Positions 20,801 to 63,865 of a stretch of 64,000 bases of DNA are shown one piece after another. Under the pieces are notes generated by a model. It had not been told where the DNA came from. It worked only from the letters and a program-made list of their open reading frames with translations, and did no database searches. The position numbers and the translations under genes are program-made. The stretch is from a virus, in IMG/VR virus record IMGVR_UViG_3300026484_000002, positions 27,282 to 91,281 of that record; one strand, 5' to 3'. How positions within the stretch are numbered: position 1 is the stretch's first letter; each line of letters opens with the position of its first letter.

Positions 20801-22501
20801 GCTTCAGAAAAAACATTAGAAAAAATAAAAAAAGAAAACGAGTTCTTGCATAGTATTCTTCATTATGCAACCAATCCTGTAGAATTGGAATCTATAGTAT
20901 CTGACATTGGTTCTAATCAATCTGATAAAAATGCTCCTGATGATTTTTTTGATGCTTCAAAAGGAGAACCTAGAAGCAACCATGCTTTAGAATCTGAAGA
21001 AGGAATAAATACTAATTTTGAAAATAAAAAAACACATATACTAAATAATACTGAAGATACTTCTGAAACACAAAACACTATAGAGAATAAAATCACAGAA
21101 CTAAATGACTTATTAGGCAATAAACAACACGAGAACTTCAGTAAACAGCTAGAAGAAACCATTGAATCAATTCCTTCTTTTTCAACTGATATACTAAACC
21201 AACTAAAAGATACAAGAGGACTTAAAAGTTATGTTACAAATGTAAAAAATGGTATAAACCTTATGCCAAAGCTTTTAACACGACTCACAAAAGAACCAAA
21301 TGAGCAAGGTACTCCTACTTGGAACGCCAGAGCTTATAGAGCAGTTACTGCATTAGAAAAGTATGCCAAGGCTGCTAATAAAATAATAGAAAGTGAAGCA
21401 TATCAAAAAATACAACAAAATGCTTTTCAGGAAAAGTTGCCCAATATAGAACAGACAGCATCTAATACTAACACTAGTATGAATGAAGTTTCTTTTGACG
21501 CAGATGAAGCTCCTTTTGATATTTCTAATATTGATATAAACACAGAACCAAAAGAAAACAATAATATTAGTACGCAAAACAACACAGTTGAGATTGGATC
21601 CAATGAAACAAAAAAAGAAATTGGATCAAACGAGACAACAGATAGTAAACTTAACGAAACAAGCAATAACAAAGATTCCAAAGAAGAAGTAGAAACAACT
21701 CCTAAAATGGATAGTACTGGATCCAATGACTATAAAATTCCAGATATGGAAACAAAACAATCAAGTGAGGCATCATTAAGTAATGAAGCACCATCAAATG
21801 TTGTCAGTAAAGTAAAAGAACAACAGCAACCCAATAAACAAACCAAACAAGCTGAGCAGCCAAGTAAAGAAAAGGTTGAATCAAATAACAAATCTAATAA
21901 AGAAGCAAATAATAAAGAAGTAAAAGAAGTAAATGATAAAGAAGAATCAAAGAACGTCAAAACAGTAGATAACCATGGTCCGATTGAAAGAAAAAACAAA
22001 TCTGATACTTTTTACAAAAATGATACAACATATAAAGATCCTATAAAACAGAAGGAAAAACAATTAGTAAATAGTGTTGTCGGTAAATTGCAGACAATAT
22101 TGAATAACTACGAAAAGAAATACAAAGAAGTAGAAACTACTTTAGGCACCGACATTAAAACAATAAAAGCAGAAAGAGCTAAGCGTACTAAATCACTAAA
22201 AGAATTTACTGGAATTAAAGATATTGCATCTAGAGGAAAAGTTAAAAAGAAATATTTTTACGAAGACTTAAGTATAACTATTGAAGACTTATTAGAAGAT
22301 ATAGATGAGAATAGTTATCTTGGAAAAAATATAATAGAAGAAGTAAATAAAATTCGACCTAATAGTAAAATAGGTATTGAAATACTTGAAAATAATAGTA
22401 TCTCTAAAACAATAGAAGAATCACTAACTAATATGCTTGATAAAGAGATCATAAGTGAAGATGTGATAAACTCTCTAGAAGAAATAACAGGATGTAACTA
22501 A
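17876..22501 (+). CDS. Giant virion protein, upstream partner of the virion RNA polymerase
   Basis: 1541 aa. Residues about 285-680 include several Ala/Gly-rich hydrophobic helices (NARGFAGGVARVIGDTAKLA; PAEYIQSGIQAF ... ATQGAAFGAASG) like those in large phage internal proteins. The second half is Glu/Lys/Asn-rich, disordered and coiled-coil-like. Its stop overlaps the next ATG (TAATG). In N4 the polymerase is a single 3500-aa virion protein with large N- and C-terminal domains; this ORF may be the separated N-terminal domain. That is an inference from order and summed length. Confidence 0.6.
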   Translation: MANYPDDFTKNTNNVLDQFSQLTDTYNTAVDVIGSVPTSTNKINHLQQKKQQKIDRLNPDATLDLYNNMDIYTNEYGITKDSLNSYTPEQLQEMLGSSVNDKVYYDDKEIGPYQMKQDAEGEWNKTPFSGTTQHVYVAPSKDGNMKLGLAGVGFRERYTPGLAAKEGLTTNKNYGWAPGEKGVDPTKEPYLDIALPYDEASRLEFLTHSNKGQIANRAGGASVADYIKNVKPNVYGKGASEYTTQNAPMWNINSSNTDLPEQVVTPHIPKFLGDTSTPRSKAIGVIHDNAEYEGEPLLGQFADGVARNARGFAGGVARVIGDTAKLANDLETRAIYESAKRLYDFNEKDANELADRFQFLTKEKLDTMENAIAGEDFVTATADDTKKMEEHQKKAFKDVTWSDPSSYGKVNLPEAYNMFKTGLSSPEMTFKSLGYMLGNLIGLPEKAAIKMAGKGTLKALEYNAKKDVAKEMLSKAAKTDKLIAAGKITTEDAVKKGMTLLDPAKKAMYEKTIQLSDRALSKIPIKNKFNAFVAKNANILHLGAVTNEQDMDDYYEKHGERASLQHALLGFAANAVGAKIDLWADKTALMGTKEGFSALIKKAGKTRAQKMLTGVISGAAKMAEGGIAELPAEYIQSGIQAFNNTYKDDNAAEALTKAFHDATQGAAFGAASGIHMAGPSAGSNIITNTFTETDSDKSYENKITSDTEPTNATSDEQAQDLALDKLYTHLHEKGEPLSEEDKPLAHASVERHLNNTLQSLALAEENINAEIAKENPDTEFIGSLEKEKENLEDKISILLDMRNHTAEDGVIYNNRPIKEIDNDLTQTIEQLNNEPKDPKLIKKKRQLLLEKYIASHPLAKKANENGEDTEDSEATFDTVLSQKLYGGVTKDGYRTGIVNMVTPLFDDSISEHGKRAVKNNIERFLESQSAKEKAIEAAKTKFEEQGKDAEENPTPVIARYFTPTGTEATFEYRGIASEKTLEKIKKENEFLHSILHYATNPVELESIVSDIGSNQSDKNAPDDFFDASKGEPRSNHALESEEGINTNFENKKTHILNNTEDTSETQNTIENKITELNDLLGNKQHENFSKQLEETIESIPSFSTDILNQLKDTRGLKSYVTNVKNGINLMPKLLTRLTKEPNEQGTPTWNARAYRAVTALEKYAKAANKIIESEAYQKIQQNAFQEKLPNIEQTASNTNTSMNEVSFDADEAPFDISNIDINTEPKENNNISTQNNTVEIGSNETKKEIGSNETTDSKLNETSNNKDSKEEVETTPKMDSTGSNDYKIPDMETKQSSEASLSNEAPSNVVSKVKEQQQPNKQTKQAEQPSKEKVESNNKSNKEANNKEVKEVNDKEESKNVKTVDNHGPIERKNKSDTFYKNDTTYKDPIKQKEKQLVNSVVGKLQTILNNYEKKYKEVETTLGTDIKTIKAERAKRTKSLKEFTGIKDIASRGKVKKKYFYEDLSITIEDLLEDIDENSYLGKNIIEEVNKIRPNSKIGIEILENNSISKTIEESLTNMLDKEIISEDVINSLEEITGCN

Positions 22502-25500
22502 TGAGTTGTAATATAAAAGCAGGACATATAATAGAAGGTATAGGAAAATATTTAAAAGATGGTGATAATGCTACAGCAAATAAGTTGCAAAATGCATTAA
22601 GAGATACTACAAATTTATCTACTCACTTTACTATCGACTTTAAAAGTAAAAGTAAGTTAGATGATTATTCTAAAGAATATGACAGTAATAGCAACAACCT
22701 TACTACTACAGAACTTCACATAAACAATTCAATAAGTAATTTCATTGAAAAAGCTGTGGATCTAATTCCTAGTGTGGATAAAACGCTTCCATCTATTGAA
22801 GGTGAAATTTCACAAGGATGGCAAAGTGTTATCTCTTATTTTATTCGACCTGAAACAATAAAATCAACAGATAAATATGGAACTACAAAAGAAAAAATTA
22901 TTACTAGACTTGATCCTGATGTTCAAAGAGCAGTATCTTTAGTTACTTCTGAATGGTTAAACAATGATGCATTAACAGGCATTTCTGAACTAAGAGGTGA
23001 TGATGGAGTTAGAGCTCTGCTTGGTATGGGGACAAAAGATATCGTTACTAAAACTGAAAGAGATGCTGTAAGAGATATTGACGGTTATGTTGGTGAAGCT
23101 GCTAGGCAAATGGGTAATAAAATCTACAGCATGTTAGGCATAAGAGCAAAAGCAAATTCTCCACAAATAAATAATAAACTGATTGAAAATACATTAAAAG
23201 TAGAATTAGGTTTGTTGGCTCTAAAAACATTGGAATACAATGGAGATATATCATTGAGCAAAAAAGACATTATACTGAACGAAGAAGTTATTAGATCCCA
23301 AGTGTCAGTATATCAATTCAACAATAAACATAATAACAACATTAATCTAAATACTCCTAATGGGGTTCTTCCTTTGTCAATAAATGACAAATATAATGAT
23401 ATCAAATTTAGTAAAATATTTACTGATAAGGTAAATGAAGTAATCAACAATAAAAGAATTGCAGGGATTTATACTGATCCAAAAGAAGCAATACCATCTT
23501 ATGATGAAATAAAAAATAATGGTGTAACTGGAATACTAGGTAATATAGTCAGTGAGGCACATAAGAATGCTGTACAAAATTCTAGTAGTACCGCCTATGA
23601 ATTTAAACATGGGTTTATTAAAGGTGTAGAGTATGTAGAAAAAGCCCTTAAAAAAGCTATGGGGTATAAAGATGAAGCTAAAACTACCAAAGGACTAAGA
23701 GAAGCCACTAGAGGTAAAAATTTAGCCATAGATATGCAGTATGATAATTTAATGAATGCATATAATACTGTAGGTTTGAGCAAAAAAATGTATGCTAAAT
23801 GGGAAGTTATTACTAATAATAGATTTATGATTGATAGCAACCAACTTAATTGGCAAGATAAAAAAATGCATAGACAAAGTGTATTTTTTGAACCTGTTGT
23901 GGTTACTGAAGAAAATAAAAATGATTTCTATATGATGTTAGGTCAATCTTTTGATTTAGATATAGATAAACATTCTCCTGATGTGGTCAATAAAGCTGTT
24001 GAAGATTTGTTTAAGGATATTGAAAAAAATACAAAATTATCAGTTACTAAAAGAACTAAAAAAAGTTTAGACTCTTATTATAATAGTAAAGATTACAAAA
24101 AAGATATTGAAACATTATTTAAATACATAGTTGATAATTACAACAGTAGTGAGCCTGAACATGCATTAAGTGGTGCAGTTGAGCTTCTGGGTTGGATGCA
24201 CGAAACTAAAGCAAGTAGACCATATACTACTCAATCTATGATAGAGACTGATGCTATTACTTCTGGATATGCAATCAAAGGCTTGATGTTTCCATTTCAT
24301 GATAATAAAGAAGAAATTAACTGGAGTGAATTTGAACGCACAGGAATATTTACTGCTGATGCAGAAATTACTGATTATGGAGAATGGAAAGATAATGAAG
24401 ACAATAAAGATTCTTATGAAGTTCCAGCAGAAATGCTTACTGAAAAATTACAAGCATTATACACAGAAGATAATACAAAAGAAATTTCAGACATTATAAA
24501 ATTAATTGACAAGAAAGCTAAATTTGATAAAGATGGAGAACTAGTCTCTATATCTCGTAACTTTATGAAGAATCCTTTTATGGTTCTAAACTATGGTAGT
24601 GCTATTAAATCTATCATTAGAGCTGTTAGTAAACATGCTGAAGATGAGTTCTATCAAACTTTAGATGCACTTTTCAACAGTAAAGAAAATAGCAATAGAA
24701 AAGAACTACAAACTAGTGTTTTAAATGCAATAGCAACTATAGCTAAAAGAATGAATCCTATCTTTGATGTAGATGGTGAAATTATAGGATTTGATAGAAC
24801 CAAAGCTAATTCTACATATAAATCTATTATCAATAGATTTAAACACGAAGGCTTAGAATTTGAACTTACTTCACAAGAAGCTACAGCTCTAAGAGAAAGC
24901 ATATCAGATTTTATAGGAGAACCACTAACAAAAACATTTAAAGAAAAATATGGTAGATTTATAGAATTAACTACAACAATTAATGAATCTATGGTTGCTC
25001 AATTTAGAATAGCAAATGAAGTAATTGAAAAAGAAATAGAAAAACTTCACCAAGAAAAATTAAAAGATGCTAGTGGTAATGAAAAACTTGTAACTCCTAT
25101 GACTGATAAAGAGTATCAAGAAATAGTACAAAGTGTAGCCAATATTCTGCCTGTTGTAAATACAGCATTGGATCTGGTTGAAGGTGGTAAAGCTCCATTA
25201 TTGATAGCAGAATTAAAAGCTATAGATAATAGAGAAGTATGGGGAAATACTAGTACTAGTGGTTATGTCCGCAGCAAGTTCACTAAAAACACAAAAGAGT
25301 CAGATGTTTATATTAATAGTGCTCCTGCACAAGTTAAGAGATTATTAGAAGCATATTCTTCTGGTTCTGTAATACCTATTCATTTCTTTGATGGTAGTAT
25401 TCAAGCCAAATTATTAGCTAAGCTAAAAGCTCTTGGAGTACATGATGCCAACTTCTCTCCTATAAATATGACTATAGAAGTAACTAAAGCGTATAATGAA

Positions 25501-25998
25501 ATATTTTGGGAATTAGCTAGAGAATATAGTTTAGCAAAAGAAATTAGAGAAAGTTATTTAAATAGCTTAACCGCATTAGATGATGATATTGTTACAGCAT
25601 TAAACAGTAAATACTCAGAAACATTGAAGGATAGTTCTAAGATCCCATATACAAAGACTTTAAGTAAATTAAACAAGCAATTAGAAAATGTACATATAGA
25701 AGCTGAAAATAAAAGAGAGAAGATATTTACTACTCCTGTAGTAGTTAATCAAGCTTATTATAACAATGGCACTGAAAGTGCAGCATATATACCTAATAAA
25801 AATGAATACACTAAACAAACTATAGATGAAGATCTTGTAAACAATGCTGCTGACAAATTAAAACGATATAATAATATATCACTTGAAAATAATGCTGATA
25901 TACCAACTGATATGACGCAAACGCAAGCTTTGATTAGTGATAAAGATGCTAAAATAGCTATAAATAATGTTATAGAAAATAATAATAAGGAATGTTAA
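22501..25998 (+). CDS. N4-like virion RNA polymerase catalytic subunit
   Basis: 1165 aa. Single-subunit T7-family RNA polymerase motifs are visible: motif A ETDAITSGY with Asp584; motif B RNFMKNPFMVLNYG with Arg686, Lys690, Tyr698 and Gly699 (R-x3-K-x7-YG); motif C VHDANF with His981-Asp982. Spacings A-B of 106 and B-C of 292 are close to those I recall for the N4 virion polymerase (about 111 and 281). This enzyme would be packaged and injected to transcribe early genes from hairpin promoters. Unlike N4 it is a separate 1165-aa reading frame. Start overlaps the previous stop; ends one base before the next ATG. Confidence 0.82.
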   Translation: MSCNIKAGHIIEGIGKYLKDGDNATANKLQNALRDTTNLSTHFTIDFKSKSKLDDYSKEYDSNSNNLTTTELHINNSISNFIEKAVDLIPSVDKTLPSIEGEISQGWQSVISYFIRPETIKSTDKYGTTKEKIITRLDPDVQRAVSLVTSEWLNNDALTGISELRGDDGVRALLGMGTKDIVTKTERDAVRDIDGYVGEAARQMGNKIYSMLGIRAKANSPQINNKLIENTLKVELGLLALKTLEYNGDISLSKKDIILNEEVIRSQVSVYQFNNKHNNNINLNTPNGVLPLSINDKYNDIKFSKIFTDKVNEVINNKRIAGIYTDPKEAIPSYDEIKNNGVTGILGNIVSEAHKNAVQNSSSTAYEFKHGFIKGVEYVEKALKKAMGYKDEAKTTKGLREATRGKNLAIDMQYDNLMNAYNTVGLSKKMYAKWEVITNNRFMIDSNQLNWQDKKMHRQSVFFEPVVVTEENKNDFYMMLGQSFDLDIDKHSPDVVNKAVEDLFKDIEKNTKLSVTKRTKKSLDSYYNSKDYKKDIETLFKYIVDNYNSSEPEHALSGAVELLGWMHETKASRPYTTQSMIETDAITSGYAIKGLMFPFHDNKEEINWSEFERTGIFTADAEITDYGEWKDNEDNKDSYEVPAEMLTEKLQALYTEDNTKEISDIIKLIDKKAKFDKDGELVSISRNFMKNPFMVLNYGSAIKSIIRAVSKHAEDEFYQTLDALFNSKENSNRKELQTSVLNAIATIAKRMNPIFDVDGEIIGFDRTKANSTYKSIINRFKHEGLEFELTSQEATALRESISDFIGEPLTKTFKEKYGRFIELTTTINESMVAQFRIANEVIEKEIEKLHQEKLKDASGNEKLVTPMTDKEYQEIVQSVANILPVVNTALDLVEGGKAPLLIAELKAIDNREVWGNTSTSGYVRSKFTKNTKESDVYINSAPAQVKRLLEAYSSGSVIPIHFFDGSIQAKLLAKLKALGVHDANFSPINMTIEVTKAYNEIFWELAREYSLAKEIRESYLNSLTALDDDIVTALNSKYSETLKDSSKIPYTKTLSKLNKQLENVHIEAENKREKIFTTPVVVNQAYYNNGTESAAYIPNKNEYTKQTIDEDLVNNAADKLKRYNNISLENNADIPTDMTQTQALISDKDAKIAINNVIENNNKEC

Positions 25999-28900
25999 AT
26001 GAAATGTACTATATACGCTTTAGGTGAATACCTTGATGAGAAAGAAGATCTGCCAAAAGTCATAAAAGAATTAAGAAAATTAGATAAGTCAGATAAGTAT
26101 TTTCCTGACAGTGAATACAAAAATTTAGCAAAACAAGCAATATTGGATCACAACCAAGCTTATCAGCTTATGGAAGATCTTGATGGTAGATTTAGATATG
26201 AATACGAGAACCAATACCATGTTGTAGATATTAAAAATATAGATATAAATAACAATAAAAATGAATTAAATATAGTTCTAGCAGATAATACTACTATCAA
26301 ATATAAGATAGATAATAAAAACCTAAAAGCTATTAATCATCCTTTTTATTCAAGAGATCTTGAGTTGCAATGGAATGATGTTGTTAGCTCACCTATTGAG
26401 CTTTTATTTAATGGGGTTGATGCAAAAAGTAAAAATCTAGATAATATTATAGAAGGAAAAGAACTCCTTGATGGTAATATTGAGGCAATTCAAACAGAGT
26501 TAAGTAAGTTAGATAGAATAGCTCCTAACAGTTCATGGGATCAAGCTCATAGCAATCATTTAAAAGAAGTAATAAGTCGCATAAGTAGATCTGCTGACGA
26601 ATTAAAAACAGTACAGATAAAAGTAACTAAAAATTTAGTTGAAAATCTAAAAGAACCATTGGGTAGCTATAATACAAAAAGTAGAACTATCCAAGTTGCT
26701 ACAGCAGAAGCAATGACTAAATTTGGAATGAGCAATGAAGAAACATTGGCTCATGAATATCTTCATGCAGTATTAGATATTTTATTCAATAAGCAATTAG
26801 GTGTTATGGGTGAAGATATAAAAAATGATTTACGAAAATTATATGTACAAGCTAAAAAGAATATAACCTGGAAAGATTTAATGCCTGCTAATGAACTACA
26901 CAGTAAAGCAGCAGAAAATAAAGCTAAAGAAATATACGATTATATTTTTATTGGTAAAATTGGAGATAATAGTGTTGAAGATGCAGAAGTAAGATTAATG
27001 GAATTTCTAGTTTATGGTATGACCAATAAAGAGTTAAAATCAGCCATAGATAAAATATCATTAAAAGTCAAACCTGTGAAAGCTAAGTCTTCTGGTTTAT
27101 CTGGCATCTTTGAATATTTAATGGAAAAATTACAAGATTTAGTTTTTAAAATTAAAACCAAAACAAATAGAAGTGATAATGTAGGGTCAGAACTTACAAG
27201 ATTGGTTTATAAGCTTGGAACAATAAATAAAATGTATGCTAAAACTATTGAGAACAATAAAAACTTACCATTAGATGAAAAAATATTCTCATCTGTAGAT
27301 AAGGTTTTTAGTAAAATGGATAAAGAATTAGGCAAAAAAGTTGAGTCTATAACTAATGATTTTCTAAATGAAAAAGATGGTGATAAAATCTACACCAACG
27401 ATTTAATAACTCAAGTTAAAATGCTCAGTAAAGAACTCACAGAAGCTTATAACAAAGGCAAAATTATAAAAACTGCATGGTTATCCATTAAAGGTATATT
27501 TGTCATTATGAAAGCTTATAGATTATCTAAACAAAGTAAAAATGAAAATATTCAACGATTGTATAAAGAGTTGGATCGTTTACTTCGTAGGATGGATGAA
27601 TTTGCTGGTAAGTTTATATCTGATCTTCTCAGGGATTTCAAAGAGGGAAGAAAGACATTGGTTCAATTAGGTGACATAACTATGCAATTTAAAACCCAAT
27701 TAGATCGTGTTAAAGACATGTATTATAAAGGAACACTTAATGATATTTTTTCTGGTTTTACTAAAGTGGATCTCACTCACGAAAGACATAAAAAACTTAA
27801 CCAATCTTTAACAAATGTTATATTACGTACAGATGTACAAAGTTTCACTACCGATGTTAATGAACTTAAAAAATACATAACAGATGATAAAAAATTATCT
27901 AACACTATAAAAGAATTAGAAGATGAATTAAGTCAAGCTATGTTTAATAGCAAAACATCTACATTAAATGTAGGTCCATGGGTTGTTAATGAATGTAAAG
28001 AATTAGCTTCTTATATGATATCTAGAAAAGGAAAAAGAAATAATGCAACTAATATATCACATTTATTTGGAACCACAGAAAGTGTACCTTTAGATGAAAG
28101 CTTAAATGGACTATGGAATATTCAAAATATAGAAGAAAAAATAGATAAACTTACTAGCCTTTATGCTCTAAAAAACACAAGTATAGAAAGTAAAAAAGCA
28201 TTAATTGAATTAATTGATTTAGATAAAAATGGAGTTCAGAATTATTTAGAAATAACTAGAGGAATGGTTGCTTCAACAAAAGAAGATTGGTTCGTAACTG
28301 GATCTTTATCTGAAATGGTAAAAGGACAAATACATGAAACTCACAATAAAGATAAAGAATTAGTTTTCGCTCCTTTAAATGAAACAAATGCAATGTTAGA
28401 AGCTGGTTATTCTTTGGTTAGGAAATTAGACAAAGATGCTGGAGATATTGATATTAAAAATTATGGTTTATTTGTAACTAACACAAAAGGAGTTACAAAA
28501 AGAGTTGATGGAGCACTGGGTCTTCAAAGAATAAAAATTCCAGGACTATTGCTAAGTCAAAAAATTATGATGTCAAATAAACATTTAACTGGAAAATCTT
28601 TAGGAAGAAAAATTAGAAATGCTATAAACAATGCTAGAGTAAATGGAACAGATGGAAAAATGTATCCAGTTTATAATGATTTAGGAAATATAATTGATTA
28701 CAGATATGAATTTACATTAGATGAGGCAGAGCAATATATGGATTTGGAAACTAGAGGTTCTGAAAATTTAGCTAGAAGTTTTGGTCAAAAAAGTTCACAA
28801 ATTATTACTGATGAACACAATAAAGAATTAATAGATTTAATTATGGAAGATTCTAAAAAAATAACTAATGAAAACAAAGATCAATTCTTGCGTGTTCATG

Positions 28901-30090
28901 CAGTTGAAAATACTGATGTAAACAGTGGATCCAAGATTGATACTTTAAATGCTATGACTGAAGGTGAAGAACTATGGGGATTGCTACCAGCAGATGCTAG
29001 AAAATATATTATTGAAAAAAATATTGAAAATCTTAATGATCCAGATAACATTCCTAAAAAAGAAATTTATATCAGTAAAGATTTATTAAAACAGTTGTTT
29101 GGTTATGATGAATTAAGTATTGCAGATAGTAAATTGTTTAAAAAAATGGATGTTAAAAATAAAAATAGAATTAGAATGATAGAAGCTTGGTGGATGGATT
29201 TAATGCAAATTGCAAAAAGTATGGTAGTTGTTAAAATGCCTAGTACTATTATAGGAAATATTTTAAGTAATGCTAAATTCTTTATGTTCTCAGGAGTATC
29301 TCCTAGAAAGGCTATACAATACTTATTGTTAAGTAAAAAAAGTTTGGATAAATGGAAAAAGAATGAAAAAGCTAGACGTGATTTAGAAAGAAAAATTGAT
29401 ATAGCTACCGGATCTAAAAAAGAACAATTATTGAAACAATTAGCAGATTTAGCTTTAGAATTAAAAGATAATCCTATTATGCCATTAATTGAAGCTGGGT
29501 TATATCAAACTATTGCAGAAGATATTGACACAGAAGATTCAACTAATAGAGTTGTTCAATTATTAGATAAAACATTAGATCCAATTTATAGTAGCAATAA
29601 AACTATTGAAGATATTATTAATACAGTATTTCTTACTAAGAAAAGTACATTAGGTCAAGGATTATTACATATAATGCAAGAAAGTGACTTTCATTTTAGA
29701 TCAGCTATATATTGGGATGGTATTGAAAAAGGAATAAGTAAAGATAAGATGTTGAGAGATGTTACAGATAAATTTATTAACTATAGTCGTGTAACTAATA
29801 GTCGTTTAATTCATTGGTTGGATAGAATGGGACCAGAAGCTTTTTGGAAATATTTTGCAAATATACAAAGAGTAAATTGGAGTTTAATGAAGAAAAATAG
29901 TACTAAAGTAATTTTAGATACTACAATAAAAGAAACTGGAGTTCCTTTGTGGTCAAATGATGTATTAGATAGTTCTATTATTTATCAATTTGGTAGAAGA
30001 TTTAACCCATTAAATTGGATCAATAATACAGAAGGATTGTTAAATGCAACAGTTGATGTGCCTATTACACATTTGATTGATGGATATTAA
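25999..30090 (+). CDS. Giant virion protein with zinc-metallopeptidase motif
   Basis: 1363 aa. Residues 249-258 read TLAHEYLHAV, a gluzincin-type HExxH motif (His252, Glu253, His256); a possible third ligand lies in AEVRLMEFLVYGM downstream. The rest is helical and Lys-rich, with no other recognised domain. ATG directly follows the polymerase stop, with AAGGAATGTTAA as ribosome site. By size and order it may correspond to the C-terminal domain of an N4-type polymerase; the protease could process virion proteins or cell-wall/host targets. The role is inferred. Confidence 0.6.
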   Translation: MKCTIYALGEYLDEKEDLPKVIKELRKLDKSDKYFPDSEYKNLAKQAILDHNQAYQLMEDLDGRFRYEYENQYHVVDIKNIDINNNKNELNIVLADNTTIKYKIDNKNLKAINHPFYSRDLELQWNDVVSSPIELLFNGVDAKSKNLDNIIEGKELLDGNIEAIQTELSKLDRIAPNSSWDQAHSNHLKEVISRISRSADELKTVQIKVTKNLVENLKEPLGSYNTKSRTIQVATAEAMTKFGMSNEETLAHEYLHAVLDILFNKQLGVMGEDIKNDLRKLYVQAKKNITWKDLMPANELHSKAAENKAKEIYDYIFIGKIGDNSVEDAEVRLMEFLVYGMTNKELKSAIDKISLKVKPVKAKSSGLSGIFEYLMEKLQDLVFKIKTKTNRSDNVGSELTRLVYKLGTINKMYAKTIENNKNLPLDEKIFSSVDKVFSKMDKELGKKVESITNDFLNEKDGDKIYTNDLITQVKMLSKELTEAYNKGKIIKTAWLSIKGIFVIMKAYRLSKQSKNENIQRLYKELDRLLRRMDEFAGKFISDLLRDFKEGRKTLVQLGDITMQFKTQLDRVKDMYYKGTLNDIFSGFTKVDLTHERHKKLNQSLTNVILRTDVQSFTTDVNELKKYITDDKKLSNTIKELEDELSQAMFNSKTSTLNVGPWVVNECKELASYMISRKGKRNNATNISHLFGTTESVPLDESLNGLWNIQNIEEKIDKLTSLYALKNTSIESKKALIELIDLDKNGVQNYLEITRGMVASTKEDWFVTGSLSEMVKGQIHETHNKDKELVFAPLNETNAMLEAGYSLVRKLDKDAGDIDIKNYGLFVTNTKGVTKRVDGALGLQRIKIPGLLLSQKIMMSNKHLTGKSLGRKIRNAINNARVNGTDGKMYPVYNDLGNIIDYRYEFTLDEAEQYMDLETRGSENLARSFGQKSSQIITDEHNKELIDLIMEDSKKITNENKDQFLRVHAVENTDVNSGSKIDTLNAMTEGEELWGLLPADARKYIIEKNIENLNDPDNIPKKEIYISKDLLKQLFGYDELSIADSKLFKKMDVKNKNRIRMIEAWWMDLMQIAKSMVVVKMPSTIIGNILSNAKFFMFSGVSPRKAIQYLLLSKKSLDKWKKNEKARRDLERKIDIATGSKKEQLLKQLADLALELKDNPIMPLIEAGLYQTIAEDIDTEDSTNRVVQLLDKTLDPIYSSNKTIEDIINTVFLTKKSTLGQGLLHIMQESDFHFRSAIYWDGIEKGISKDKMLRDVTDKFINYSRVTNSRLIHWLDRMGPEAFWKYFANIQRVNWSLMKKNSTKVILDTTIKETGVPLWSNDVLDSSIIYQFGRRFNPLNWINNTEGLLNATVDVPITHLIDGY

Positions 30091-46899: not shown

Positions 46900-47091
46900 T
46901 TACACAACTTCTATTATTTCTAAAAAACCAAAGCGGGATTCTATGTCGTGCCAATGTTGTTCTCTCAATAATTCAATTCCGACTTCAGTAAATCTTGTTG
47001 CAAGGTTTACTGATCTACATGTTTCTAATTTCATTTTTTGTAGATTTATGAAATCTCCGTCAAATGTTCTCACTATGTAAAACCTATCCAT
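46900..47091 (-). CDS. Small protein, unknown
   Basis: 63 aa, overlapping the end of thyX by 8 bp. Sequence FYIVRTFDGDFINLQKMKLE..SRFGFLEIIEVV shows no recognised domain. GC content as in the rest of the island. Confidence 0.5.
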   Translation of the reverse strand: MDRFYIVRTFDGDFINLQKMKLETCRSVNLATRFTEVGIELLREQHWHDIESRFGFLEIIEVV

Positions 47092-47968
47092 TACTTTCCC
47101 CTTTTATTATAAGTTCAAGATACTTTTTAGGTGTTGCTTTTTTTATAGCAATTGCAACTTCTCTCATTAAAAAATATGCAGCTCCAGAATCTCTCAATTC
47201 TAAAAAGTTTTTTAGTGATCTGAGATTTATTGTCCACACTACATCAACTGCCCAATTATCCGTTACAATCCATTTTAAATTATCTCCAGCATTCCTTTTT
47301 GCCTTTGACATTAATAGTCCATCGTATATCAATTCTGGCGTCTTTCTCTCAAGAACGCCATTTGTGAAAGCATCCTTAGATATAACCATTTTTACAAACG
47401 TTGTTGTTTCAAGATGAACTCTTTGCCAATCAAGCTTCTCAAACAGATTGCGAATCTCTATATCTTCAGCATACCCTTTAACAACAAATACATTTAGCTC
47501 TTTTATTTTTTCTGTGAACCATATCAACGAATCTTGCTTCTGAGTATTGTTAGAAAATGATGCTATGTATGCGTAGATAACCAAGTTCATTGTGTATCTA
47601 GTTGATTGCACAGTTGGTGAAGCTATCCTATGCCGTGAAAATTCCTGTAGACATCCTCGACTCATTCCTTTTATTGTATATTGTAAAATACAGTGCTCCA
47701 GCACAGAATGATGAAAATATGTCCACGCTAAATTATCAAGCAGACTCGAGTGCTCAATATCTTTTAGTTTATCTATCGATGTCCTTACATATTCTGAGTT
47801 AAACATTTCACTATTAAGTGCAAGGTTTAAATTTTGCACGGCATCATTTTCACTTTTATCAAAACTACTGTATGCCGTTCTTGCTCCAAATTCCGCAACA
47901 CCCAACCCCGTGTCATTCAAAAGATACGCTTTTGGCTTCGCGTATTTCACGCCTCCTTTAATCAACAT
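47084..47968 (-). CDS. thyX: Flavin-dependent thymidylate synthase
   Basis: 294 aa. Contains the complete ThyX signature RHRIASPTVQSTRY (R-H-R-x2-S-x4-S-x-R) after the conserved HHSVLEHCILQYTIKGMSRGC stretch. ThyX converts dUMP to dTMP using FAD and methylene-tetrahydrofolate. It is longer than typical and lies in the GC-richer island, so it may have been acquired with the neighbouring genes. A second homologue is at 63275-63865. A GTG just after AAAGGAGG is an alternative start. Confidence 0.9.
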   Translation of the reverse strand: MLIKGGVKYAKPKAYLLNDTGLGVAEFGARTAYSSFDKSENDAVQNLNLALNSEMFNSEYVRTSIDKLKDIEHSSLLDNLAWTYFHHSVLEHCILQYTIKGMSRGCLQEFSRHRIASPTVQSTRYTMNLVIYAYIASFSNNTQKQDSLIWFTEKIKELNVFVVKGYAEDIEIRNLFEKLDWQRVHLETTTFVKMVISKDAFTNGVLERKTPELIYDGLLMSKAKRNAGDNLKWIVTDNWAVDVVWTINLRSLKNFLELRDSGAAYFLMREVAIAIKKATPKKYLELIIKGESNG

Positions 47969-56936: not shown

Positions 56937-57713
56937 TTATGCGTTTTCTAAATACCATTTTTTTTCTTTTGAATTAAATTTATATATATTTCCTTCAATG
57001 TCGCAAGTTGAAAAATGGTATTTAATCATTTTGTTTCTAAACCATTCTGGATATTCAGATTCCATACAATTATCAGTTGCATGAACATTTCTAGATGGTG
57101 CATTCCATGGTGAATAATCATGAAATATTAAAGCATTTGCACCAAATGGTACTTTCATTATTTCAGAATTTTTTTTTATATTATTTGAAAAATTACATGT
57201 ACTTTTTGTATCTCCAGAAATTAATATTATTTTTTCACTATCTCTAATTAGAATTCCGCTTGTTTCTATATGATGAATACCTGAAATTGATTTAAAAGAT
57301 ATATTATCTAATTTATCTATATTGAAAAATGATTCATTATAAACAATATTTGTTTTGTAAATATTAGCTTCAACAAATCTGAATCCTTCCATTTTTTTAT
57401 TAATTCCATCAAGAAATTTTAATGTATTTTCTCGCCCAATTATAGTAGTTGTTAGTCCATAAGTGAAATATCTATAATATAGAAATGATTTTAAAGATCC
57501 TACATGGTCATCATCAAGATGTGAAATAATTACATAAGATATATCTTTTATAATATTTGGTCTATCTTTTTCTAATTCTTTTAATTTTGTAAATACATTA
57601 TATCCACAATCAAATAAAATTGATTCATTTAATGTATTAATTAAAAATGATGAATTTATCATTTCTGTATCAAATGCTCCTCCACATCCAATTACTTCTA
57701 TTGATTTAATCAT
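56937..57713 (-). CDS. Metallo-beta-lactamase-fold hydrolase
   Basis: 258 aa. ISHLDDDHVGSL (residues 63-74) is the metal site motif with Asp67 in place of the second His (H-x-D-x-D-H); other ligands are likely in ISGIHHIETSG, LISGDTKS and IFHDYSPWNAPSRNVHATDN. The N terminus has IEVIGCGGAFD as in MBL nucleases and phosphodiesterases. Its ATG follows the JAB gene stop directly (GGAGAGTAG), so it is the fourth member of the E1/E2/JAB cassette. Substrate unknown. Confidence 0.8.
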   Translation of the reverse strand: MIKSIEVIGCGGAFDTEMINSSFLINTLNESILFDCGYNVFTKLKELEKDRPNIIKDISYVIISHLDDDHVGSLKSFLYYRYFTYGLTTTIIGRENTLKFLDGINKKMEGFRFVEANIYKTNIVYNESFFNIDKLDNISFKSISGIHHIETSGILIRDSEKIILISGDTKSTCNFSNNIKKNSEIMKVPFGANALIFHDYSPWNAPSRNVHATDNCMESEYPEWFRNKMIKYHFSTCDIEGNIYKFNSKEKKWYLENA

Positions 57714-59027
57714 CTACTCTCCTTTAAGTTTGGTTCCTTGATAAGAAGCTTCCATTTCTTGTATAAAAGCTTCATCATCTAATTTATCATCATCATTGTA
57801 AAACTTCATTTCATCATAAATAAATTCAGCAAATTCATTTTGTAATTTCATAATATCAAGATTTTGTACATTTGTAGCTTTTACTTTTTCACTATTTAAT
57901 TCAAAATATAATTTTTCATAATATACATTTTTATTGTCTTGTGACATTTTGTTAATAATATTATAATCTAATAATTTAATTTCATAAATAGTTTCAGCAT
58001 AATCATATAATACTTTCCATTCTTTTGAATTCCTTGTTGGAAGAGCATTTTTTATTTTAGTTTTATTGATAGGAAATTCAAATAATCCGTTAATTTTAGA
58101 TTTAAAAACAGTAGATGCATATACTTTTTCTGAAACATTATCTTTTAAAATAAAATCAATATCTGCTTTAAATTTAGATTGCTTCATAAAATCATAAAGT
58201 ATATTTGAAATATTTAAAGTTTGTTCTTCGTCATCAGTAATTTCATCATCAAGTTTATATGCTTCTAAAGTTTCTTCATTTCCAAGCATTTTAGATAGCA
58301 TTGAAATTTCATGATTTTCTTTATATGCATATGTTAAACATTTTTGTTTTTCATAAACAATATTATTGTCTTTCATACTTACTGTTCTGTATTCTGAATG
58401 TGCAATATATGCTCCACTTCTTGAATTATGAATAATAGACGCAAAGCTTGGTTCTAATCTATTTTCTTTAATAGATCCAAAAGGGAATATAATTCCTGGA
58501 TTATCTGGATTTTTATCATAATCAGTTCCTGTAAAGGAATCGTATCTCCTTGACACTGAATCACATGGATGTTTATGTATTGATTGTAAATGATTTGATA
58601 AAAATTCATAATTTTTAAAATTATATTTATTTTTAATAATTTCAACCATATTTAAAAATGATTTACTTTCTAATAATTCATTTACTTTACTATTATGTAG
58701 TGGTTCTAATTGTTTACTTGTATCATCTGTATCATTTAAATTAAAATCAATACGACCTGATGATACTTCTTGTTTATAGTTATAAAATACTGTAGGAATT
58801 GATAAATCCATAAAAGAATTATCTGCATATTTAAATCTAATAATTAATGACCAGTAATGTACTTGATATTCGTTTTGTTTTGCTAATGAACCAGTATTTT
58901 TTCTAATATTATTAATATCTTCATCATTTACTAATAATATACCTAAATTGGATCCAACTGTTTTATCTGTAATTTTAATTTTTGATTTTGTTGGAATTGT
59001 CATTTTAATTGTTTGTTTTTTCTTCAT
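57714..59027 (-). CDS. JAB/JAMM-type metalloprotease (putative deconjugase)
   Basis: 437 aa. Residues 147-183 (LQSIHKHPC ... SFTGTDYDKNPDNPGIIFPFG) have the JAB arrangement His151-x-His153 ... Ser/Thr-x2-Asp169 and the N-P-x-x-P-G-I-I-F strand; the H-to-S spacing is longer than the classical seven residues. JAMM enzymes remove ubiquitin-like modifiers. The start overlaps the E2-like gene end by 23 bp, with AGGAAAAAC before the ATG. C-terminal 200 residues are helical and unknown. PRTRC protein A is the closest known concept. Confidence 0.65.
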   Translation of the reverse strand: MKKKQTIKMTIPTKSKIKITDKTVGSNLGILLVNDEDINNIRKNTGSLAKQNEYQVHYWSLIIRFKYADNSFMDLSIPTVFYNYKQEVSSGRIDFNLNDTDDTSKQLEPLHNSKVNELLESKSFLNMVEIIKNKYNFKNYEFLSNHLQSIHKHPCDSVSRRYDSFTGTDYDKNPDNPGIIFPFGSIKENRLEPSFASIIHNSRSGAYIAHSEYRTVSMKDNNIVYEKQKCLTYAYKENHEISMLSKMLGNEETLEAYKLDDEITDDEEQTLNISNILYDFMKQSKFKADIDFILKDNVSEKVYASTVFKSKINGLFEFPINKTKIKNALPTRNSKEWKVLYDYAETIYEIKLLDYNIINKMSQDNKNVYYEKLYFELNSEKVKATNVQNLDIMKLQNEFAEFIYDEMKFYNDDDKLDDEAFIQEMEASYQGTKLKGE

Positions 59028-60057
59028 TTTGTTTTTCCTCTAAGATTTCTGCTATTTTATAAATTTCTAATGATTTTTTAATACACATTTTTGCATATTC
59101 TAAAGCTCCTGAAGCAATAATTTTTTTATTATATGGAGACAATAAGTTAGCATGATTTAATGTTCTTAAACCTTTTAATGTTGAATTAGATAAGTTTCCT
59201 GTACATACACTATGCCAATCTTTATTATGTTTACTCCATGCTATATTACAAGAAATCATTGGTGTTATATGCTGTCCTAAAGCTTCTCCATTAAGTTTAA
59301 TAACTGATGTTCCATAATAAGGCATAACAATACCTTTTGTAAGTATTTGATGGGCTGATAGATATAATTCATAACTAGAATCTTCTGATTTATCTTTTTT
59401 TACTTTATATTCAATATTTGCTAAACCATTATTAAAGCTAGCATTGATAATTTTAATGTCTGAATGTATTTGACTTGATGATAATTTAATAATATTATTA
59501 ATATTATTTTCTATTAATTCTAAATCTGCTGTTTCTGATTGATATTCTTTTTTACATTTATCTAAACTTTCTTGTGTGCTATATATATAAATTACTATTT
59601 TATATTCTTGATTATGCCATTCTGGATATTTATCTTTATCTGATAAAAGCATTGCTGTTACTGGATGAATAGGATTAATGATATTCTTATCATTATCAAT
59701 TAATAATGCTCCATAAAATAATTCTTCTATTTCATCGATTATTTCATTAATTAAATTGATTGCTTTTTTATAACTTTTAATATTTGTAATTGTAATAATA
59801 TTATTAGTTACTTCATCAAACAATATATCTGATAAGTGCATTTCAGATGTATATTCTTTTGTAACTATTTGTTCTCTATTTTCAATTAAATTTTTTAAAG
59901 CTTCACTTTTTGCTCCAATTCTAATTAACGGAGATCCATCTTTTATAAATTCGTTTATATTATCAATTAAGTCTGTTGGATCCATAGTATTTTTAAATTC
60001 TTCTTGTGTATGTTCTAATGTATATTGAAACATTGTTTTATTATTTATGAAATACAT
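59005..60057 (-). CDS. Putative E2-like protein (PRTRC-B / prokaryotic E2 type)
   Basis: 350 aa. C-terminal region residues 246-315 (MPYYGTSVIKLNGEALGQHI ... WHSVCTGNLSNSTLKGL ... NHANLLSPYN) resembles the end of the PRTRC protein B / prokaryotic E2 family, where a V-C-x-G motif follows the 'N-x-x-x-G' strand; Cys285 is the candidate. The N-terminal 240 residues are not recognised. ATG directly follows the E1-like stop (GGAGAATAA). Context with E1 and JAB genes supports the call, but similarity is weak. Confidence 0.5.
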   Translation of the reverse strand: MYFINNKTMFQYTLEHTQEEFKNTMDPTDLIDNINEFIKDGSPLIRIGAKSEALKNLIENREQIVTKEYTSEMHLSDILFDEVTNNIITITNIKSYKKAINLINEIIDEIEELFYGALLIDNDKNIINPIHPVTAMLLSDKDKYPEWHNQEYKIVIYIYSTQESLDKCKKEYQSETADLELIENNINNIIKLSSSQIHSDIKIINASFNNGLANIEYKVKKDKSEDSSYELYLSAHQILTKGIVMPYYGTSVIKLNGEALGQHITPMISCNIAWSKHNKDWHSVCTGNLSNSTLKGLRTLNHANLLSPYNKKIIASGALEYAKMCIKKSLEIYKIAEILEEKQNEEKTNN

Positions 60058-61203
60058 TTATTCTCCTTGTTCTTGAATATTATTAACTTGATTTTCATCC
60101 ATCATTAATCCATTAAATTCCATTTGAAATGAATATTTTCTATCTGTAGGTAATTTACTTTCACCATTAAAACTTCCCTTAGCTACAATTCTATTTTTTT
60201 CATCTAAATCATTTTCTTCAGCTAAGAATTCTAAGAATTTAATTGCCATATGCAATTGATTCATAAAAAATTGACTTAATTGAATAATTCCATAAGATTC
60301 TACTTGAAGATCTGAATCTTGAGTTGGATTTAAAATTAAAGAAAAATCATTTCCTCCATGAGTTGCTGATAAAAATCTAAGATTATTATCAACTAGCATT
60401 TCTCTTGTTTCAATATTAGGAGCACCATAAAAAATATGTTTATTTTTTATATGTTCAACTTCAATTTTAGGTTGTGCATATTCATCTCTTATTGTATATC
60501 CATAATTATCATATTTTCTTTTTATATTTATTTGTTTGAAATATTCTTGATCCATATAAATATTAAATTTACTTAAATAAAAACTATTAATATTTATTTT
60601 ATTTCTTGATAGATATTTTAATTCATTTTTAATTCCATTAATTTTATATGCATGATTTCTTGATATAATTTTATTCATATCTTTTGGAATTCTTAATAAA
60701 TTTGAAATATCATATTGTTCTTTTTCAAATATATTGATATTTTTAAATAAATTAATAGTGTTTGTCATTTTTGCTATTTCTGATAACCAAATTACTGTAT
60801 TTGCTACAGAACCACCTGCACCTACAAATGTAATATCCCATTCTTTTCTTTTTACATTTGTCATTAATGCTTTTAGATCTTTTTTTGAATATCCTAATAT
60901 TCTACATAATTGTTCAATTTCCATTTGTTTAACACCAAACATATTTGCAAACATTGGGTGAATTGCTACTGATGTTTTTGGCAAATTAGCAATATCATTT
61001 ATATAAACATCGTTCATTTTTCCTGCAACTAATATTCTAGGTACGAATGAATCAATAACTACATTTGATTTACCATTTGATGGTCTATCAAACATTGCAT
61101 ATCTGGTTCTAATCTGATCCGCTAAATATTTATTTACAAAATTAACTTTTTTATTTCTAACATTTGACCAAATTACTTCTTTTTCTGTATTTTCTGTTTC
61201 CAT
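60058..61203 (-). CDS. E1-like ThiF-family adenylating enzyme
   Basis: 381 aa. Rossmann ATP site ITFVGAGGSVANTVIWL (Gly128-x-Gly130-Gly131), EKEQYDISNLLRIPKD (acidic residue, Asn168, Arg171 like the 'D-x-V-x-x-SNL-x-R' motif), HAYKINGIKNEL (Lys187), and GAPNIETREML (Asn263 ... Thr266-Arg267 matching 'D-N-x-x-T-R'). The N-terminal 120 residues are extra. The only Cys in the protein is Cys100, before the domain, so no catalytic thioester Cys is evident. Head of the four-gene cassette. Confidence 0.8.
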   Translation of the reverse strand: METENTEKEVIWSNVRNKKVNFVNKYLADQIRTRYAMFDRPSNGKSNVVIDSFVPRILVAGKMNDVYINDIANLPKTSVAIHPMFANMFGVKQMEIEQLCRILGYSKKDLKALMTNVKRKEWDITFVGAGGSVANTVIWLSEIAKMTNTINLFKNINIFEKEQYDISNLLRIPKDMNKIISRNHAYKINGIKNELKYLSRNKININSFYLSKFNIYMDQEYFKQINIKRKYDNYGYTIRDEYAQPKIEVEHIKNKHIFYGAPNIETREMLVDNNLRFLSATHGGNDFSLILNPTQDSDLQVESYGIIQLSQFFMNQLHMAIKFLEFLAEENDLDEKNRIVAKGSFNGESKLPTDRKYSFQMEFNGLMMDENQVNNIQEQGE

Positions 61204-61229
61204 TATATTTTCCTATTTTATTAACTTAT

Positions 61230-61257
61230 TAGATCCAACCTTTTTAGATTGGATCTA
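61230..61257. repeat. 9-bp inverted repeat in the cassette leader
   Basis: TAGATCCAA and TTGGATCTA are perfect arms around a 10-base loop, between the 41-aa gene and the E1-like gene. Both arms contain the over-represented GATCCA/TGGATC word. No T run, so an RNA-stability or pausing hairpin or operator is more likely than a terminator. Confidence 0.6.
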
Positions 61258-61261
61258 TAAA

Positions 61262-61387
61262 CTAACTTCCTGATTGTGAAGTTGTTTTTAATGATGCACT
61301 ATCACTAATGCTAACTGAACTATTTGTAGTAGTATCTTTACCTGCAATTTTTGCTGCAATTTTTTGAGCTAATGTTTCTTCTGCCAT
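61262..61387 (-). CDS. Very small Ser/Thr-rich protein at the head of the E1 cassette
   Basis: 41 aa: MAEETLAQKIAAKIAGKD followed by a Ser/Thr-rich tail TTTNSSVSISDSASLK and ending SGS. It has one of the strongest ribosome sites in the window (AAGGAGTAAAAT). It could be the modified substrate or a modifier-like peptide, although it lacks a C-terminal Gly-Gly and is too short for a ubiquitin fold. Confidence 0.6.
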   Translation of the reverse strand: MAEETLAQKIAAKIAGKDTTTNSSVSISDSASLKTTSQSGS

Positions 61388-61390
61388 ATT

Positions 61391-61921
61391 TTACTCCTTA
61401 ACAATTGATGGTTTAACTAATAATGTTTTAATGATATCTGTATCAATACCTGTTAATTTTACAAGTTCCATCATAATTTTCTTATTAGATGCTAATGAAA
61501 TATAATCAATTGAAGGATGTTCAATTTTATATCCAAAGACTCCATTTCTAATTACTTGAGTTAATACATAAACCCCTACTGTAACAAGTTGTTCTTTTCG
61601 TTTATTGGACATAGTGAGTTTTTGCCACCAAGATAATCTTGATAAGATTACATTTTCTACTAATGTTTCAATATTTTGAAGCAGAATTTCTCCTGTTACA
61701 ATTTTTCCGTTAAGTTTTGTTTCTTCTGAAACTCTATCGATTGTTTTTTGCATTTCATTTTCCTTTGTGTTTTGTTTTGTATATCTTACATATTCATTAA
61801 TCGCTTCTTCTGCGACACTTGTTGCGTATGCTTCTGCATCTTCTTTAAATACTATTTGAACATCATCTTCAATTTCGTATTCATTTAAATCATCTACATA
61901 TAATGTATTTAAAATAGCCAT
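61391..61921 (-). CDS. Hypothetical protein, first gene of the E1 cassette
   Basis: 176 aa, acidic N terminus (LNTLYVDDLNEYEIEDDVQ), helical remainder (SWWQKLTMSNKRKEQLVTVGVYVLTQVIRN). AAAAAGGAGACATAT before the ATG. It stops only 3 bp before the 41-aa gene start. No family recognised; a ubiquitin-like fold is not apparent. Confidence 0.6.
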   Translation of the reverse strand: MAILNTLYVDDLNEYEIEDDVQIVFKEDAEAYATSVAEEAINEYVRYTKQNTKENEMQKTIDRVSEETKLNGKIVTGEILLQNIETLVENVILSRLSWWQKLTMSNKRKEQLVTVGVYVLTQVIRNGVFGYKIEHPSIDYISLASNKKIMMELVKLTGIDTDIIKTLLVKPSIVKE

Positions 61922-63274: not shown

Positions 63275-63865
63275 TTATTCTTTAGTTAAATTATCATATA
63301 GTTTTTCTGTAAATACTTGTGGATATAGTTGAGCAAACTTACTATATAAATCTTTTGCTAATTCCCTAATTTCATATTGAGCATGAGATGTTAATCTTAG
63401 TTTAAAAAAATCCATCCATGCTTGTAAGTTACCTGAAACTCTCATATTAGTTGAAGTATTCATAGGGAGAACTGCTCTAGCATCTTCTTTTTTTACTTTA
63501 TTATTGATTAGTTCTTCATATGTTTTAATAGCTTGATCCCAAGATTCTTTCATTAACTCTTGTTGATTTGGATCCAATCCTTCAGGCATAATAAATTGCA
63601 TTTTATTTGCAGATACATATCTCATAGATTGAACTAAGAAATCTAAATGTTTGGATCTAACTACTTGATCTGAACATGCTCTTGATATGTTTTTAATATC
63701 TACTACTACAAATGCAAATCTAAGTACTGCAAGATGTCCATATCCATGAACCAATTGATTGGTAATATCTTTACCTCCATCTTCAATAAGTTTGCTTGCA
63801 TAACAAATTTTTGCACTTTCTCCAATTATATTTTCTGGTGTATAAGTAATAATTTTAGTTTTCAT
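63275..63865 (-). CDS. ThyX-like protein with altered signature
   Basis: 196 aa. The fold-level ThyX features are present: HGYGHLAVLRFAFVVVDIKNISRACSDQVV, then VRSKHLDFLVQSMRYV where ThyX normally has R-H-R-x2-S-x4-S-x-R, and ARAVLPMNTSTNMRVSGNLQAW...EIRELA. The RHR is RSK and the first Ser is Asp, while S-M-R-Y is kept. It may be a divergent thymidylate synthase or an enzyme with a changed pyrimidine substrate. Downstream end of a gene cut by the window edge overlaps it by 11 bp. Confidence 0.8.
   Translation of the reverse strand: MKTKIITYTPENIIGESAKICYASKLIEDGGKDITNQLVHGYGHLAVLRFAFVVVDIKNISRACSDQVVRSKHLDFLVQSMRYVSANKMQFIMPEGLDPNQQELMKESWDQAIKTYEELINNKVKKEDARAVLPMNTSTNMRVSGNLQAWMDFFKLRLTSHAQYEIRELAKDLYSKFAQLYPQVFTEKLYDNLTKE

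Follow-up and report, generated by a model that had tools for sequence, protein, structure and literature searches.

Operons in which an E1-like protein of the ThiF type is combined with an E2-like protein and a JAB protease are known from bacterial defence systems and from plasmids. Here we describe a related cassette in a phage, located in a DNA stretch of 64,000 bases (the window), which corresponds to bases 27282-91281 of the 91,281-base virus record IMGVR_UViG_3300026484_000002. Type II CBASS (cyclic oligonucleotide-based antiphage signalling system; Cap2/Cap3) and Bil (BilABCD) share with this cassette the E1, the E2-like protein, the JAB protease and the logic of conjugation and deconjugation, but they are bacterial defence operons, whereas the phage cassette is carried by a virus. 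The Cap2 protein of CBASS is a fusion of E2 with E1. Bil conjugates a ubiquitin-like protein. The protein conjugated in CBASS is a nucleotidyltransferase and not ubiquitin (PMC10097602; PMC10449767). In contrast to both, the candidate tag of the phage cassette is a peptide of 40-50 amino acids (aa). PADLOC, with which a part of the neighbouring genes was scanned, gave weak matches for some cassette neighbours only and none for E1 or E2.

Operons of type 6a encode a triple-module E2-E1-JAB protein together with a metallo-β-lactamase (MBL) (Iyer et al. 2006, PMC1779556), as a previous sequence-only reading of this DNA had noted for E1/E2/JAB sets. In the phage cassette, in contrast, E1, E2 and JAB are separate proteins and an MBL gene adjoins them in 2 of 13 cases. 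The PRTRC cassette of plasmids (E, C, F, B, A and ThiF; cf. type 6d, Iyer et al. 2006) shares with the phage cassette E1/ThiF, an E2-like protein with CxG..HxN and a JAB protein, which in PRTRC likewise carries HxH..FSxTD. Both have a small neighbour, and most of the fetched PRTRC-C proteins end in Gly. However, PRTRC-C is a 70-aa protein to which neither the phage peptide nor the other small upstream protein showed a match, PRTRC-ThiF retains a catalytic Asp and an SC-motif Cys which the phage E1 lacks, and the gene order is B-A-ThiF in PRTRC and E1-E2-JAB in the phage. PRTRC ParB, E or F genes were not recognized beside the phage cassettes and there was no NCBIfam PRTRC match. The phage cassette would work in the manner of PRTRC/6d and type II CBASS systems. 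We did not assign it to PRTRC, because its proteins matched neither PRTRC-C nor PRTRC-B by profile and the active site of its E1 differs.

Two further systems resemble the phage cassette in the size of the peptide. Pup is conjugated via its C-terminal Glu by the glutamine-synthetase-like PafA/Dop and not by E1/E2/JAB. It is a short disordered modifier with a Gly near its end, and its C-terminus is processed from Pup-GGQ to Pup-GGE before conjugation (PMC3769308). The likeness lies in the short modifier with a near-terminal Gly, whereas trimming of the phage peptide is a proposal. The ThiF-like enzymes MccB, PaaA and EnfB of pathways for ribosomally synthesized and post-translationally modified peptides (RiPPs) are also encoded beside a short peptide gene, but a JAB partner is not described there (PMC12250964), and the active-site set of the phage E1 differs. 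In the literature searched, with preprints and most subscription papers lying outside the search, we found neither such a phage cassette nor an E1/E2/JAB set with such a peptide.

The cassette and its immediate neighbours are listed here from upstream to downstream:

61391-61921, minus strand: U, partner protein of 176 aa and of unknown family, directly upstream of the peptide gene
61262-61387, minus strand: candidate modifier peptide, 41 aa (leave-one-out hidden Markov model; Shine-Dalgarno sequence AAGGAG)
61230-61257, minus strand: hairpin with a 12-bp stem and a 4-base loop, between the peptide gene and the E1 gene
60058-61203, minus strand: E1/ThiF-like protein, 381 aa (family alignment, hhalign against PRTRC-ThiF)
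59005-60057, minus strand: E2-like candidate, 350 aa (motif anchors; fold without UBC match)
57714-59027, minus strand: predicted JAB/JAMM metalloprotease, 437 aa (motif and Foldseek)
56937-57713, minus strand: MBL-fold hydrolase, 258 aa (PF00753)

The last four open reading frames (ORFs) had been read from the sequence as one ubiquitin-like conjugation unit. All four exist on the minus strand, their junctions are tight (zero-gap, 23-base overlap and zero-gap in the order E1, E2, JAB, MBL), and a Shine-Dalgarno-like AGGA/AAGGAG precedes each of the four starts. The gene block, the JAB protein and the MBL fold were thus borne out, and so was the view that the phage carries an E1/JAB cassette in which an E2-like candidate stands between the two; the full ThiF motif set, the E2 fold and the membership and role of the MBL were not. 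The 41-aa ORF, which after the enzymes is the most constant component, and the hairpin which separates it from E1 had been missed. The interval considered also takes in the gene of the 176-aa protein.

No family in Pfam, NCBIfam or PHROG recognizes the E1, E2 or JAB protein of the window directly, and the proposal was therefore tested through relatives. The JAB protein as a query brought L002-L005 from viral contigs and opened the family; E1 and JAB alignments as queries then added L006-L015, L019, L024, L028 and L029. Duplicates (L002=L006, L003=L004=L010=L011, L005=L015) and re-fetched loci (L016-L018, L020-L023, L025-L027) were dropped. This left 13 non-redundant cassettes (the window, L006, L007, L008, L009, L011, L012, L013, L014, L015, L019, L028 and L029), outside which stand L030, a near copy with 90% identity, and L024, a mere fragment. 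Single-sequence searches gave no relatives for E1 in viral contigs, for E1, E2 and JAB in annotated phages, for L014 E1 in plasmids, or for L028 E2 and L029 JAB in annotated phages. A search for PF14460 in 199 genomes of the phylum of L030 gave no match and was uninformative. The E1, E2 and JAB genes are contiguous in 13/13 cassettes, i.e. in 12 besides the window. The order E1-E2-JAB, for which a check in related phages had been suggested, is kept in 12 of them, and L029 has peptide-JAB-E1-E2. Identity to the window drops to 21% (E1), 23% (E2) and 22% (JAB). This conservation, together with the profile comparison of E1 and the structure predicted for JAB, supports a phage E1/JAB cassette.

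A short peptide ORF lies upstream of the enzyme genes in all 13 cassettes. The window peptide, MAEETLAQKIAAKIAGKDTTTNSSVSISDSASLKTTSQSGS, has a helix-like N-terminal segment (judged by eye), a Ser/Thr-rich middle and an SG-x end, and the C-terminal parts in relatives read ...SSVQTTEASSLNTKSGSGAK (L007), ...NVTTASGSTMKSKSGSGVAA (L009), ...VEGGVSEAKSKSGVHPN (L019) and ...AQNVEVAGKSGM (L029). The peptides are 38-52 aa long, that of L019 being counted from an internal ATG at 2682, and are rich in Ser, Thr and Ala. A leave-one-out profile built from the other 12 peptides ranked the peptide ORF first among the 98-206 ORFs of each locus (13/13) with E values from 9e-17 to 0.73, the two weakest of which (0.18 and 0.73) count through rank and position only. 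The motif SG stands within the last ten residues in 12 of the peptides and is replaced by KG in L012 (KG-Q); 1-8 variable residues follow, and a bare C-terminal Gly was found in 0/13. Among the 1042 ORFs with a length of 30-60 aa in the loci studied, a pool which contains the peptides themselves, 9 (0.9%) have KSG no more than eight residues from the end. Since the peptide is too short, is rich in Ser, Thr and Ala and had no match in a Pfam search, it does not appear to be a ubiquitin-like β-grasp modifier of 70-80 aa with a C-terminal Gly. It looks like the likely tag of the cassette, one unlike any known ubiquitin relative. The Gly which is never bare and the JAMM protease which is always present fit the processing of a precursor.

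The JAB protein is the best supported enzyme of the set. Across 13 sequences its E53 and H151-x-H153-P do not vary, and (S/T)xxD (D168) is found wherever the chain is unsplit, so that the HxH...D site read earlier is real and is completed by E53. In the structural model, core residues 18-300 mostly have pLDDT values of 80-97, with lower values at 155-190. The best Foldseek match in PDB had an E value of 4.5e-5 (probability 0.99), and each of the listed matches is an MPN/JAB protein or a complex containing one (MPN domains of NPL4, BRCC36, Prp8 and Rpn8-Rpn11). The Prok-JAB profile gave weak matches in 3 family members. Motif and predicted fold thus confirm the 57714-59027 product as a JAB/JAMM metalloprotease; the JAB core, whose absence had been named as evidence against a conjugation cassette, is present. 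In two divergent phages (L004/L011 and L005/L015), a break immediately behind HKHP divides the JAB gene into two ORFs (9068-9502 and 9858-10784 in L011; 9015-9413 and 9422-10216 in L015), the second half has its own ribosome site, and in L011 a 109-aa ORF lies between the halves. The split point corresponds to the low-confidence loop 156-161 of the window model, which makes a two-chain enzyme plausible. A JAMM protease whose metal site is shared between two chains would be unusual.

In the E1-like protein, G128xGG131 and N168xxR171 are invariant and K187 is nearly invariant in 14 sequences. The comparison of its profile with plasmid PRTRC-ThiF proteins by hhalign gave a probability of 93.9 and an E value of 1.5e-7, and one family member matched ThiF PF00899 (E 4.2e-5). 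The nucleotide-binding core is ThiF-like, and by the GxGG loop, the NxxR arginine finger and the Lys the protein can be placed, as far as sequence tells, in the ThiF/E1 superfamily. The full ThiF adenylation motif set which had been ascribed to it did not hold up, since the family has GxGG, NxxR and K but never the catalytic Asp. Its position is taken by P262 (YGAPxIxTR), by Pro in nearly all relatives and by Gly in L012. The PRTRC homologues carry D131..R136 in a CVDxxxAR segment, the Asp of which we take, by its pattern, to be the equivalent of the MoeB/ThiF adenylation Asp; the register (D-x4-R against P-x4-R) was read by eye, as the global hhalign alignment left the region unresolved. The E1 alignment contained no invariant Cys, and where PRTRC has its SC motif it shows ESYG or ETYG. 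ATP-dependent activation is therefore not assured. Newly found invariant residues, H282 and E302-x-Y304, may replace the missing chemistry. The total length of E1 ranges from 299 to 686 aa, and N-terminal extensions of diverse length and sequence, possibly target-recognition modules, occur in L007, L009, L013 and L019 but not in the window.

The strong anchors of the E2-like protein in the family alignment are limited to N271-I, V284-C285-T-G287 and H302-x-N304. A motif of the Prok-E2_D/PRTRC-B type is present, with an invariant Cys in the context N-[IV]..[VI]C and a His after it, and PRTRC-B proteins show N..CxG..THxN in the same way. The E2-like proteins of row 6d operons lack the usual His, but a conserved His follows their Cys (Iyer et al. 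2006, PMC1779556). The profile comparison with whole PRTRC-B was not significant (prob 1.2) and the C-terminal part (C..H segment) gave a prob of 3.0 (P 0.015; controls 0.22-0.64); an identification as PRTRC-B by profile was not supported for the protein as a whole (prob 1-3). The Pfam search gave no relevant match. The model (pLDDT 75) had its best Foldseek match in PDB at E 0.32, none to a UBC fold, and in BFVD it matched one uncharacterised podovirus protein (E 1.5e-16). Thus, the V-C-x-G motif read previously stands, whereas the RWD/UBC fold found no counterpart in PDB. The motifs make an E2-like nature of the 59005-60057 product plausible; E2 activity is a hypothesis, because the profile comparison was not significant and the model had no PDB match.

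A stable hairpin follows the stop codon of the peptide gene in 11 of the 13 loci (the window and 10 others), although its sequence is not conserved. The window hairpin (-15.8 kcal/mol, z -6.2) is identical in L030. It is possibly an attenuator or an RNA-stabilising or processing element. The exceptions, L019 and L028, both have an inserted ORF at this place; by eye, these ORFs (2879-3766 in L019 and 4181-4843 in L028) resemble homing endonucleases of the HNH/AP2 type, and both cassettes have them at one and the same site, between the peptide gene and E1. The upstream neighbour of the peptide is a small protein in 7 cassettes, U in the window and, at the same position, its homologue in L012, and a DUF7566-type protein in L028. 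The small protein (81-103 aa, ββαββ by eye) was considered as a common modifier and rejected, because it has neither a PRTRC-C match nor a conserved C-terminal Gly, and also because it was not found in the window, L012, L014 and L028.

We regard the chances as about even that the cassette serves to tag proteins reversibly with a peptide which lacks the ubiquitin fold. We infer the following course of trimming, activation and transfer. The peptide would be made as a precursor ending in (K)SG plus 1-8 residues, and JAB would trim this tail so that the Gly becomes the C-terminus. The E1-like protein would bind ATP and use an altered chemistry to activate this Gly, the E2-like protein would pass the peptide via Cys285 to a target protein (conjugation), and JAB might also remove the peptide, thereby reversing the bond. 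The hairpin behind the peptide gene could ensure that more peptide than enzyme is made, and the upstream partner (U in the window, the other small protein elsewhere) would be a candidate target or adaptor. Several points weigh against this. The E1 has neither the canonical adenylation Asp nor the SC Cys of PRTRC-ThiF, the E2-like protein showed no match to a UBC fold, the upstream neighbour of the peptide varies between cassettes, and the terminal SG motif is short and is KG in one locus.

Among the alternatives, a RiPP-like pathway appears unlikely, though it is the strongest of them. The ThiF-like enzyme would activate the C-terminus of the precursor to give a small cyclised or nucleotide-linked product which inhibits the host or a rival phage, with JAB as the maturation protease and the E2-like protein as a tailoring enzyme. 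In RiPP clusters, a short precursor gene typically adjoins that of a ThiF-like enzyme and is followed by a hairpin, and MccB, PaaA and EnfB are known to act on short peptides (PMC12250964). However, JAB and an E2-like Cys protein fall outside the described ThiF-RiPP pathways (the term JAB is absent from PMC12250964), neither a transporter nor an immunity gene was recognized beside the cassette, and the conserved part of the peptide is its extreme C-terminus rather than a core peptide. Counter-defence against a host Bil or type II CBASS system, in which JAB strips conjugates, the peptide mimics a modifier C-terminus as a decoy and E1 and E2 are dead-end binders, is rather improbable. It would agree with the non-canonical active site of E1, with JAB as the best supported enzyme and with the weak resemblance of the MBL beside the window cassette to Apyc1-type hydrolases, but the invariant or nearly invariant G128, G130, G131, N168, R171, C285 and H302 would not be expected in a mere decoy, and E1 and E2 had no PADLOC match.

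JAB could also process a substrate without any conjugation, E1 and E2 being two structural partners. The substrate would be a virion or regulatory protein or the peptide itself, as a small assembly-related protein cut near its C-terminus. This is consistent with the lack of the catalytic Asp and Cys in E1, with an E2 fold matched to one uncharacterised podovirus protein only and with the ability of JAB to act by itself on a C-terminal SG-x tail; a phage tail JAB with the ubiquitin-like TAPI is a precedent for JAB in assembly (PMC1779556). We nevertheless consider it improbable, as the nucleotide-site residues G128, G130, G131, N168, R171 and K187 and the E2 Cys285 are kept at 21-24% identity and the constant E1+E2+JAB set is a known signature of conjugation operons. 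Finally, small ORFs abound in phage genomes and each peptide is short, so that the peptide might be an unrelated neighbour. This is hardly credible for an ORF which accompanies 13/13 cassettes in both gene orders, is always the top leave-one-out match and stays by E1-E2-JAB despite the intervening inserted ORF in L019 and L028.

The MBL protein next to JAB is a true MBL-fold protein with a metal motif (PF00753, Lactamase_B, E 4.8e-11; HLDDDH, a HxDxDH variant of the HxHxDH type), as had been read, but its membership in the unit was not borne out. It adjoins the cassette in the window and L012, is broken in the L011 record and lies distant in the L029 record; with just two adjacent cases it was rejected as a core component and is an accessory. 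The match to the Apyc1 family was weak (E 3.4e-8, under the family cut-off) and that to the 6A-MBL family model was far below the cut-off (E 0.018). The protein could equally well act in counter-defence, as a nuclease or cyclic-nucleotide hydrolase, or take part in tagging.

The window encodes an N4-type portal (phrog_1216, E 7e-172), which shares 56% identity with the portal of Alteromonas phage AD45, and a match to the N4_RNAP_helical domain (E 4.8e-6); because of these two features we regard the phage as an N4-like podovirus (Schitoviridae-type). The earlier suggestion was that a lytic-type podovirus would be a new setting for such a set; the setting is not confined to one phage. The N4-type portal was found in 9 of the 15 records searched, the window's record included, and the carriers are mostly N4-like phages. 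In the 162-kb record of L029, an N4 portal was sought and not found, but Terminase_6N was matched, and the cassette may therefore have crossed phage lineages. The only relative in cellular genomes was L030, on a 7-kb contig in a Peptostreptococcaceae metagenome-assembled genome, which is probably phage-derived. At 5129-6953 of L030, U is 100% identical to that of the window at the amino acid level and the peptide-E1 intergenic region is identical, but E1 is 90% identical, which suggests recombination inside the unit.

Three other features of the window were observed. The N4 virion RNA polymerase is one chain of about 3500 aa. In the window (17876-30090), a 1165-aa ORF (22501-25998) between ORFs of 1541 and 1363 aa contains the helical domain of this polymerase, which may be split into separate proteins here. 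There are two genes for ThyX-family thymidylate synthases (47084-47968 and 63275-63865; Thy1 E 1.9e-25 and 4.2e-46), and an 873-aa ORF at 40167-42788 matches a Hint (hedgehog/intein) module (E 2.3e-6, slightly short of the curated cut-off).

The tags of the known E1/E2/JAB systems are β-grasp proteins, except in CBASS, where the immune enzyme itself is involved. Phage conjugation with a short-peptide modifier that lacks a ubiquitin fold, a JAB, a non-canonical E1 and a divergent E2 might tentatively be counted, next to ubiquitin-like systems and Pup, as a third prokaryotic tagging architecture, which we hold to be somewhat less probable than peptide tagging as such. The peptide occupies the modifier's position and has persisted there despite strong sequence divergence and one change of gene order. 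The system is small (four genes) and readily testable in the laboratory. If peptide tagging is true, the machinery of ubiquitin can work apart from the ubiquitin fold, and bacterial viruses would run their own protein tagging during infection.

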